Assembly: GCF_001724815.1 (NCBI RefSeq)
Contig: NZ_MEDO01000017.1
Span: 1-59,173 of the forward strand
Length of the DNA: 59,173 nt
From: Arenimonas sp. SCN 70-307
GTDB taxonomy: Bacteria > Pseudomonadota > Gammaproteobacteria > Xanthomonadales > Xanthomonadaceae
Direction of reading: 5' to 3'
Part shown: piece after piece, positions 1 to 59,153 of the stretch
How the letters are laid out: every line of letters begins with the position of its first letter
Position numbering within the stretch: position 1 is the stretch's first letter
Position numbers and translations under genes: made by a program
The notes under the pieces: model-generated
What the model saw: the letters and a program-made list of their open reading frames with translations, nothing else
What the model was told of the DNA's origin: nothing
Databases searched by the model: none

Positions 1-93
1 AAGATCAAGGTCATAAAGCGGGTGGCCTACGGCTACCGCGATGACGCCTACTTCTTCCTGAAGATCCGGGCGGCCTTCCCCGGACTTGGGTGA
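1..93 (+). CDS. ISL3-family transposase, C-terminal 30 residues only
   Basis: The frame from base 1 reads KIKVIKRVAYGYRDDAYFF and ends in TGA after 30 residues. The pattern IKVIKR-AYGYR followed by an aromatic-rich tail is the usual C-terminus of DDE transposases of the ISL3 family. The rest of the gene is outside the window, so the catalytic residues cannot be seen and it is not possible to say whether the element is intact. It lies antisense to the last codons of the sensor kinase gene. Confidence 0.6.
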   Translation, partial: KIKVIKRVAYGYRDDAYFFLKIRAAFPGLG

Positions 94-99
94 AGAACC
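1..99 (+). mobile_element. Right end of an ISL3-type insertion sequence (partial)
   Basis: The window opens inside an insertion sequence. The first 93 bases encode the C-terminus of a transposase. The sequence following the stop codon, read from the other strand, gives a tip GGTTCTTCACCC, which fits the terminal inverted repeats of ISL3-type elements. The tract GTATTTTTT that follows is AT-rich against a very GC-rich background and would suit the 8-bp AT-rich target duplication usual for this family. The other end lies outside the window, so neither the full inverted repeat nor the duplication can be verified. The exact boundary at base 99 is inferred. Confidence 0.6.
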
Positions 100-10600: not shown

Positions 10601-10704
10601 CGCGGGCACCAGCCTGAAGGGACTTGCATCCTGGGGCAAGCAAATGGCGTTTCGCGGGCAAGGAAAGGGATGCCCTCCCAGCTGAGGGTACGGCGCCGTC
10701 GTCA

Positions 10705-10775
10705 CCGGGAAAGCGAGGGTCGATTCCTCCTCCGTGAAGCCTTTATGTCGGAGGAATCGACCCTCGCTTTCCCGG
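10705..10775 (+). repeat. Long perfect hairpin of repeat copy 1
   Basis: Two 26-base arms are perfectly complementary around a 19-base loop, TCCGTGAAGCCTTTATGTC. There is no following T-run, so it is not an ordinary terminator. The stem would be extremely stable as RNA or as a single-stranded DNA cruciform. The same loop occurs in copy 2 with a different stem. Confidence 0.85.
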
Positions 10776-10997
10776 CGCCGCCGGTGCGTGCCGGCGTGGG
10801 CGCCCAACGGAAGGCGCGTGGCCGCGGGCTTCGATGCTTGCGCGTGACGTTCAACGCTCTGGCCGCCCATCTTTCTCGCTGACCTCGTTTGGTTAAGTCG
10901 GGCGAGGCAAGTGGCCGCAGACGGCCCCTCCGTGCGCGTCCCTTCGGACGCGGGGTGCGGGGTCCTGGCCAGCGTGGAAGGCGGCCAGAGTGGGGGT

Positions 10998-11147
10998 CCT
11001 ATCCGCCCGGCGGCGGGTGTGGGGGCGAGGCGTGGAGCCTGGGTCCATTCTTTTCCGACGACGCCTCGGAGATCGATACGGAGCGGTCGGAAAAGCATGG
11101 ACCGACAGGAACCGCCGAGGCCCCACACCCGCCGCCGGGCGGATAGG
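10998..11147. repeat. Inner inverted repeat with identical 27-base arms
   Basis: CCTATCCGCCCGGCGGCGGG plus TGTGGGG at 10998-11024 recurs without mismatch, inverted, at 11121-11147. Nested inside, GTCCATTCTTTTCCGAC at 11043 is matched by the inverted GTCGGAAAAGCATGGAC at 11086 with one difference. The identity of the inner arms, against more divergent sequence further out, suggests recent copying or gene conversion between the two element copies. Confidence 0.8.
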
Positions 11148-11368
11148 TCCATCAATCTGGCCATCTTTCGGGCTCGCGACGGCGCCACCCCCAGCGTCCG
11201 GAGGGACGCGCCGCGATGGGCCGCAGCGGTATTCAGGCCGTGAACAGGTTAGCCAGGCCTGATCGGCAGGAAAGATGACTGGCCTTGGTCCTGATCGGTA
11301 CGCGCAAGCATCGGAGCCCGCGGCCACGGGCCTTTCGTTGGGAACCGAAGAAGACACGCACCGGCGAC

Positions 11369-11441
11369 GCCGCGGAAGTGAAGGTCACTTCCTTCGACAT
11401 AAAGGCTTCACGGAGAAGGAAGTGACCTTCACTTCCGCGGC
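11369..11441 (-). repeat. Long perfect hairpin of repeat copy 2
   Basis: Two 27-base arms pair perfectly around a 19-base loop that is the exact reverse complement of the loop in copy 1. In element orientation, this stem differs from that of copy 1 at 7 of 26 positions (4, 6, 10, 13, 18, 19 and 25 from the outer end), and every difference is matched in the opposite arm. Confidence 0.85.
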
Positions 11442-11470
11442 GGTGACGGCGCCTTACCCTCTGCAGAAAG

Positions 11471-11500
11471 CCCAAAGAAAAAGCGGGCCGGAGCCCGCTT
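11471..11500 (-). terminator. Intrinsic terminator of pnp
   Basis: On the minus strand an 8-bp stem AAGCGGGC / GCCCGCTT with loop TCCG is followed by TTTCTTTGGG. It lies about 30 bases beyond the pnp stop codon and ends the rimP-to-pnp transcription unit before the repeat palindrome. Confidence 0.85.
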
Positions 11501-11528
11501 TTCCCGAAGCCTGCGTTGGAAGCGGGGC

Positions 11529-58092: not shown

Positions 58093-59153
<1,061 letters not shown>

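Follow-up and report, generated by a model that had tools for sequence, protein, structure and literature searches.

The nearest described case that we found is a MITE of Microcystis aeruginosa ascribed to ISL3, which, in the accessible part of its description, is 187 bp long, occurs as 33 identical copies in one strain, lies mainly between genes and carries a terminal repeat that matches ISL3 ends starting GGCTCTTCG, with 8-nt direct repeats (PMC11448079). The Arenimonas element described here resembles that MITE, as portrayed in the same part of the paper, in being non-autonomous, stem-loop forming and multicopy. Unlike the 187-bp cyanobacterial MITE so described, the Arenimonas family reaches up to 0.87 kb and has diverged copies, and its members are giant palindromes that contain nested, near-perfect hairpins whose loop is conserved (PMC11448079). 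A search by title, with the subscription literature mostly outside its reach, found no published description of a palindromic ISL3 element of Arenimonas. Well-preserved copies of the element are also like the ISL3 insertion sequence (IS) of Arenimonas (NF033550), the ends of which are present in the same genome, in their inverted repeats (GGTTCTTCnCCCAAnTnnGGGG) and in being flanked by 8-bp A/T target duplications; unlike the element, this IS encodes a transposase and has ends without such a hairpin, and beyond the inverted repeats the two have matches of only 15-16 nt.

The GTAG and CGTC REPs, in the available part of their survey, have short stems (5-13 or 8-9 bp) with a tetranucleotide tag at the foot, the GTAG class being associated with a RAYT, and are like the Arenimonas element in being palindromic, extragenic and arranged as head-to-head dimers (PMC3733652). 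We rejected identity with these REPs, since the stem measures 26 bp and the foot of the hairpin lacks GTAG; CGTC lies within the outer arm in part of the copies only. The palindromes of IS200/IS605 (Y1) elements have by definition neither terminal inverted repeats nor target duplications, and identity with them was likewise rejected because both features are present on well-preserved copies.

A template switch between hairpin arms has been proposed to fix compensatory stem changes while the loop is kept, and the authors of that proposal, in the part of the paper accessible to us, grade the evidence for such maintenance as circumstantial (PMC8794818). They inferred the process, according to the same part, for RNA gene sequences (rRNA), whereas the present hairpins lie in mobile elements (PMC8794818). 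Template switching fits the hairpins studied here because they show double changes with few wobble steps. We consider it probable that the element is a non-autonomous, MITE-like giant palindrome of about 0.8 kb, moved by ISL3, and that the two arms of its hairpins stay complementary through maintenance at the DNA level.

The window element and its family

The window, by which we mean the whole stretch of 59,173 nucleotides analysed, comes from Arenimonas sp. SCN 70-307 (G000 in our numbering of genomes; 2.93 Mb in 35 contigs), and individual loci or copies carry L numbers. The preliminary description of this DNA had singled out two inverted hairpins with identical loops and perfect stems. On recounting, both stems are indeed paired without mismatch over 26 bp, both hairpins carry the loop TCCGTGAAGCCTTTATGTC (2 occurrences in the window, 0 in 100 shuffles), and the 7 positions at which the two stems differ are compensated in the opposite arm in 7/7 cases. 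The interval given there, 10705-11441, is too short for the whole, the insertion extending from about 10668 to 11473 (Table 1). That account overlooked that the two hairpins belong to a single giant, imperfect palindrome, whose arms are 76% complementary at 10681-10896/11249-11464 and 77% complementary at 10922-11032/11113-11223, and it missed the mobile element, linked to ISL3, of which the pair is a part. Folded as a single strand, positions 10681-11464 reach -594 kcal/mol, against -373 +/- 8 kcal/mol for 20 shuffles (z -28).

The insertion, of about 806 bp and placed to within one base, lies between pnp and a DUF817 gene (Pfam), adjoining the pnp terminator and upstream of the DUF817 gene. 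The closest relative by pnp (G021, 98%) is without the element at all four of the sites occupied in G000 and gives no match to the hairpin model. At the window site it reads GGGC-AAAGAAAAA-GCGGGCC, with the A tract present once, and in G000 the insertion stands between two versions of that tract; the insertion limits given above were set because this empty site shows a single A tract. The best flanking direct 8-mer pair at the window copy is CAAGGAAA/CAAAGAAA, with 1 mismatch. Six ORFs of at least 80 aa in or across the element gave no Pfam match at E 0.1, and the window element carries no recognisable transposase.

Table 1. Positions of the parts of the window element and of the ISL3 end at the left edge of the window.
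Feature	Position	Strand	Remarks and basis
ISL3-family IS end: last transposase codons and inverted repeat (79-99)	1-99	+	cut by contig end
Left target-site copy AAGGAAAG	10660-10667		alternatively CAAGGAAA at 10659-10666, the boundary being uncertain to 1 nt
Left terminal inverted repeat GGATGCCCTCCCAGCTGAGGGTA	10668-10690	+	resembles IS end GGTTCTTCTCCCAACTGAGGGG
Outer stem arm CGGCGCCGTCGTCA, partner 11441-11454	10691-10704	+	model match 10691-10777; fold
Left hairpin, 26-bp perfect stem (arms 10705-10730/10750-10775), loop 10731-10749	10705-10775	+	sequence; model match
Left arm, giant palindrome body	10776-11050		limits approximate; complementarity, fold
Right arm, giant palindrome body	11100-11369		limits approximate; complementarity, fold
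Right hairpin, 26-bp perfect stem (arms, minus strand, 11440-11415/11395-11370), loop 11396-11414	11370-11440	-	sequence; model match
Outer stem arm, right side	11441-11454	-	model match 11368-11454
Right terminal region, degenerate inverted repeat, inward GGGCTTTCTGCAGAGGGTA	11455-11473	-	empty-site and sequence comparison
Right target-site copy AAAGAAAA (A tract belonging to the pnp terminator)	11474-11481		empty site
pnp intrinsic terminator beside the element	11482-11503	-	sequence; same terminator in the G021 empty site

The loop is not confined to the window. It occurs eight times in G000, as four inverted pairs spaced 632-666 bases apart, and with 2 mismatches it was found in 7 of 100 genomes (G000 included), all of one genus; the named records of that genus in the context of this search are Arenimonas metalli, A. 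malthae and Arenimonas MAGs. A covariance model was built from 22 hairpins, that is 22 of 27 alignment rows after two unrelated loci and three near-identical left ends from G000 had been dropped. It matched 13 of the 27 genomes of a genus panel that included G000 (E <= 1e-3), and, under stricter filters (E <= 1e-6), 12 of the 395 genomes of a family panel, all from the same genus and hence from one of 54 genera.

Twenty-five hairpin pairs were taken as full elements, with a core length of 653-868 bp. Short single-hairpin forms also exist, such as L016 with 147 bp between its outer ends, and in L090, L103, L204 and L215 a palindromic body is accompanied by only one hairpin recognised by the model. 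A pattern scan of contigs returned 49 stretches, 28 of them of the element type, including one on a Ramlibacter MAG contig of 3.1 kb (L072) that is perhaps mis-binned. The other 21 were set aside as having no GGCGCC end by eye, as were two viral-contig matches without long matching arms by eye, and a search of plasmid sequences gave no match to the element. In the flanks of L131, L010 and L019 the GGCGCC ends recur beyond the core, L019 for instance having two occurrences of GGCGCCAGATCCCGC, which suggests end-on-end insertions or slippage.

Neighbouring genes, which the preliminary description had left to be looked up, were surveyed in 24 full elements (L091 and L072 left out). By an ORF/GC3 heuristic, the flanking genes are convergent at 12 elements, co-oriented at 12 and divergent at none, and each of the 24 elements faces at least one gene 3' end. 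This placement agrees with the targeting of tracts close to gene 3' ends, or with a loss of insertions in promoters. At the site orthologous to that of one G000 copy (L002; the full copy there is called C14a below), G023 has a short hairpin element (L169/L220), both copies standing beside a terminator; this is either a shared old insertion or repeated targeting.

Element ends and the ISL3 insertion sequence

The genomes G026, G013 and G021 contain an IS of 1311-1312 bp with the ends GGTTCTTCACCCAAGTCCGGGG and GGTTCTTCTCCCAACTGAGGGG and, at the three copies, the perfect 8-bp duplications AAAGAAGA, TTTTTCTT and AAAAAAAT; the G026 copy encodes an ISL3-family transposase (NF033550, 2.8e-101). Over its first 99 bases the window agrees with the G026 IS at 97 positions, and a 30-aa piece encoded there gives a weak NCBIfam ISL3 match (E 0.008) below the cut-off. 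BLAST aligned each of the 18 inverted-repeat loci fetched from G000 with the IS ends; 17 of these loci are at contig ends, in addition to the window start. Because its ends lie at contig ends, the IS is multicopy in G000 and presumably collapsed by the assembly, which it probably breaks. In the flanks of these 18 ends, where one side per copy is visible, at least 6 of the adjoining 8 bases are A/T in 17 of 18 cases, and a perfect GC-rich stem of at least 5 bp lies within 14 nt in 7 of 18.

Like the ISL3 IS, the best-preserved copies of the element have inverted repeats beginning GGTTCTTCTCCCAAGT and 8-bp A/T target duplications. C14a starts with GGATCTTCTCCCACCTGAGG, ends, read inwards, with GGTTCTTCTCCCAAGTCCGGGG, and is flanked by AAGAAGAA and AAGAAAAA. 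Its right end agrees with one IS end (IRL) at 22 of 25 bases and its left end with the other (IRR) at 19 of 25, the left/right difference of the IS being thus partly kept. When all BLAST matches between elements and IS at E 0.01 were considered, the strongest for C14a was the 22-nt end (E 6e-5), the other end matching over 20 nt (E 0.009). The terminal repeats of L016, L207 and L211 match the IS about as well as those of C14a, in which the left terminal inverted repeat is better preserved than in the window copy; the window left end agrees with GGTTCTTCTCCCAACTGAGGGG at 17 of 25 bases and with the other IS end at 14 of 25. The flanking A/T repeats are identical at 8 of 8 positions in L016 and L207, at 7 of 8 in C14a and L059, at 6 or 7 of 8 in the window copy and at 5 of 8 in L211, while L084 has AAAAAAAT on both sides only if its ends are shifted by one base. 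Inverted repeats and 8-bp A/T repeats are found on copies of 147, 303, 638 and 817 bp, in G002 and G000. Beyond the ends, the DNA matches between element and IS have E values of 0.002-0.009; one exact stretch of 15-16 nt is common to several elements, sometimes once per arm, and to the IS interior (IS_G021 611-625), and these stretches are either chance or a common motif.

The link to ISL3 is less uniform across the genus. A genus-wide search for the inverted repeat gave matches in 13 of 27 genomes (2-mismatch matches only in G004, G008, G015 and G025), and the pattern reversed, as a control, was hit 4 times, in three genomes. A pair of A/T 8-mers with at most 1 mismatch within 45 nt, a test that longer outer repeats could escape, was absent from 22 of the 24 full elements and present only at C14a and the window copy; the failing copies were the other two of G000 and those of G002 (L131), G003, G004, G019 (L128), G020, G023 and G026. 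The inverted-repeat search gave no match in G003, G020 and G023 and one, with 2 mismatches, in G004; G026 has matches, of which its IS copy was looked at. For several of these other species the weaker link to ISL3 reflects either decay or a different mover.

PF01610 matches to proteins of about 400 aa in many genomes were set aside as DesA-type fatty-acid desaturases, which have a tail domain in common with ISL3; this identity was shown for the G000 protein and assigned by look in G002, G003, G004, G010 and G016. The tail domain is a trap for PF01610-based surveys of ISL3. Matches just over the PF01610 cut-off lie at G000:C4:82969-83244 (L178) and G003:C1:579482-579760 (L186).

The window element was most likely moved in trans in G000 by an ISL3 transposase, given that well-preserved copies have ends like those of the IS and carry 8-bp repeats, and that ends of this IS occur in the same genome. 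An ISL3-family DDE transposase, supplied in trans, would act on the terminal inverted repeats of the element, and insertion would take place at 8-bp A/T tracts, including the tails of transcription terminators. The element would in this way tie ISL3 insertion to A/T tracts, some of which are terminator tails.

A rather improbable alternative is that the family is moved by some other transposase and that certain copies gained their ISL3-like ends secondarily. It would account for the copies in G003 and G004, whose outer sequence differs, often being GATC and about 15 bases up to the terminator A tract, and which are without a near-perfect 8-bp repeat; and no strong PF01610 match was found in G002, G003, G004, G011, G019, G022 and G023, a search that collapsed IS copies would escape. 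The occurrence of the same repeats on copies of four sizes in two genomes argues against it, however, as does the asymmetry of the IS ends that C14a partly keeps. A REP/BIME or an IS200-IS605-type palindrome, with a tyrosine (Y1) transposase as mover, would explain palindromic, intergenic sequences in inverted pairs with adjoining gene 3' ends. This reading is very improbable, since the terminal inverted repeats and target duplications contradict it on the well-preserved copies, and since elements of 147-868 bp with 26-bp stems compare with REP stems of 5-13 bp in Table 1 of the survey, as far as the latter is accessible (PMC3733652).

Stem covariation and wobble pairs

Covariation in stems is standard evidence for a conserved RNA structure. 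In the 22-hairpin alignment 96.2% of the cells pair, with two-sided changes in 16 of 32 pairs, and the structure slid along the same alignment pairs in less than 50%. We also observed that the stems of other copies generally pair with themselves, as the structural reading of the preliminary description requires: in a larger alignment drawn from the best 150 of 181 matches, which yielded 91 non-overlapping hairpins and 78 distinct complete stems, 31 of the 78 are perfect over 26 bp. The 2028 cells of these stems, from the same best 150 of 181 matches, comprise 1948 Watson-Crick pairs, 46 A.C, 7 G-U and 27 other combinations; a cruder text filter of hairpin rows (94 rows) gave G-T 12 and A-C 46. 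Nearest neighbours (reciprocal neighbours counted twice) differ by 90 double Watson-Crick changes, whereas one-sided changes led to A.C in 34 cases, to other combinations in 17 and to G-U in 3. Counted by distinct column, pair and genome in 88 distinct rows, gapped cells being skipped, there are 460 Watson-Crick, 4 G-U, 29 A.C and 20 other cases, and at least two Watson-Crick types occur in 24 of the 26 stem columns. In the same 88 rows the loop is 93% and the stem 80% conserved, which calls for a function or a priming role of the loop.

The control, 27 6S RNAs drawn from these same 27 genomes and paired according to an RNAalifold structure, gave 141 G-U and 9 A.C among 1458 cells; 102 of these 141 come from five columns, and G-U is found at least once in 21 of 54 pairs. 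The contrast in wobble between hairpins and 6S has a Fisher p of 6e-29, which is indicative only, since the cells are non-independent. In hairpin orientation the mismatches favour A.C over G.T, 26 to 7 without column 19, corresponding on the opposite strand to 26 wobble against 7 A.C without this clade-heavy column (p 0.001; 88 distinct rows). Wobble thus makes up 0.3% of cells in hairpin orientation and 1.2% on the opposite strand (48/2263, or 2.1%, with column 19), compared with 9.7% in 6S. The two ends of full elements have the same mismatch orientation (A.C 8 and 9, G-U 0 and 0). The body arms of 26 elements (the 25 full ones and L072) are 77.7% complementary and without strand bias, with 283 G.T against 269 A.C (p 0.58), and no distance-dependent correction was seen in them, complementarity being 0.75-0.84 across arm distance in bins of more than 100 cells. 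A search of Rfam gave no match near a gathering score, the 30-32 bits for mir-B6 (cut-off 89) being at chance level.

The preliminary description had read the compensated stems as the result either of selection for a structure, in RNA or in single-stranded DNA, or of a copying process. Its DNA side, copying or selection on a DNA hairpin, fits these counts better, whereas its RNA side is weakened by the contrast between 7 G-U among 2028 cells in the hairpins and 141 among 1458 in 6S. We infer maintenance of the arms at the DNA level because double Watson-Crick changes occur almost without wobble intermediates; the counts favour it well ahead of RNA, with copying and selection on DNA inseparable here. 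The arms may be kept matched by templated repair or by replication template switching inside the hairpin, and selection on the DNA hairpin possibly helps to keep them so. Simple templated copying is disfavoured because the body is not better paired near the palindrome centre.

Selection at the RNA level is unlikely as the main cause of the covariation. On the corresponding reading, the hairpins would be structured RNAs, either regulatory or RNase III targets in mRNA tails, and would covary under RNA selection; the strong covariation of the 22 hairpins and the conserved loop agree with it, RNA in hairpin orientation can add near-invariant G-U and U-A pairs within the loop, and the mismatches on the opposite strand lean to wobble in the direction expected from RNA selection. 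We nevertheless regard it as quite unlikely, for wobble is scarce on both strands compared with 6S, a single transcript predicts mirrored biases at the two ends where the same bias is found, the body arms show no strand bias, and Rfam offers no family at its gathering score. A protein-binding DNA hairpin, single-stranded or cruciform, that serves transposition or upkeep is somewhat less unlikely and overlaps with the explanation preferred here. Stems that drift around a conserved loop, an inverted hairpin at each end in all 25 full copies (which were collected as such) and covariation poor in wobble, as DNA pairing would give, all suit it; against it, hairpins are not known to be required for ISL3-type movement, the IS ends do not have this one, and forms with one hairpin exist, both by the model and as the short L016.

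Returning to arms matched at the DNA level, we tentatively suggest, while judging it somewhat less probable than not, that the terminal DNA hairpins are continually rewritten and have no RNA function, the near-invariant loop being a recognition or priming signal. If this is true, the many copies of the family form a natural record of template switching in DNA, and they warn against taking strong covariation of stems by itself as proof of a structured RNA. The wobble count, as compared here between a mobile element and 6S of the same genomes, may help to separate DNA-maintained hairpins from RNA, and the four G000 copies with the empty sites of relatives are material for testing template switching in bacterial hairpins.

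Other repeats in the window and beside pnp

At the right edge of the window, positions 58227-59153 encode a 308-aa IS110-family transposase (NF033542, 3.5e-68). The contig ends 20 bases past it, with TGTAGGAGC on the other strand, which is GTAG-REP-like by look. Beside the same pnp terminator that adjoins the window element, G026, G023 and G020 have a different palindromic repeat (L138, L139 and L143), TGTAGGAGGGACTTCAGTCCC or similar, which by look is a GTAG-type REP dimer.
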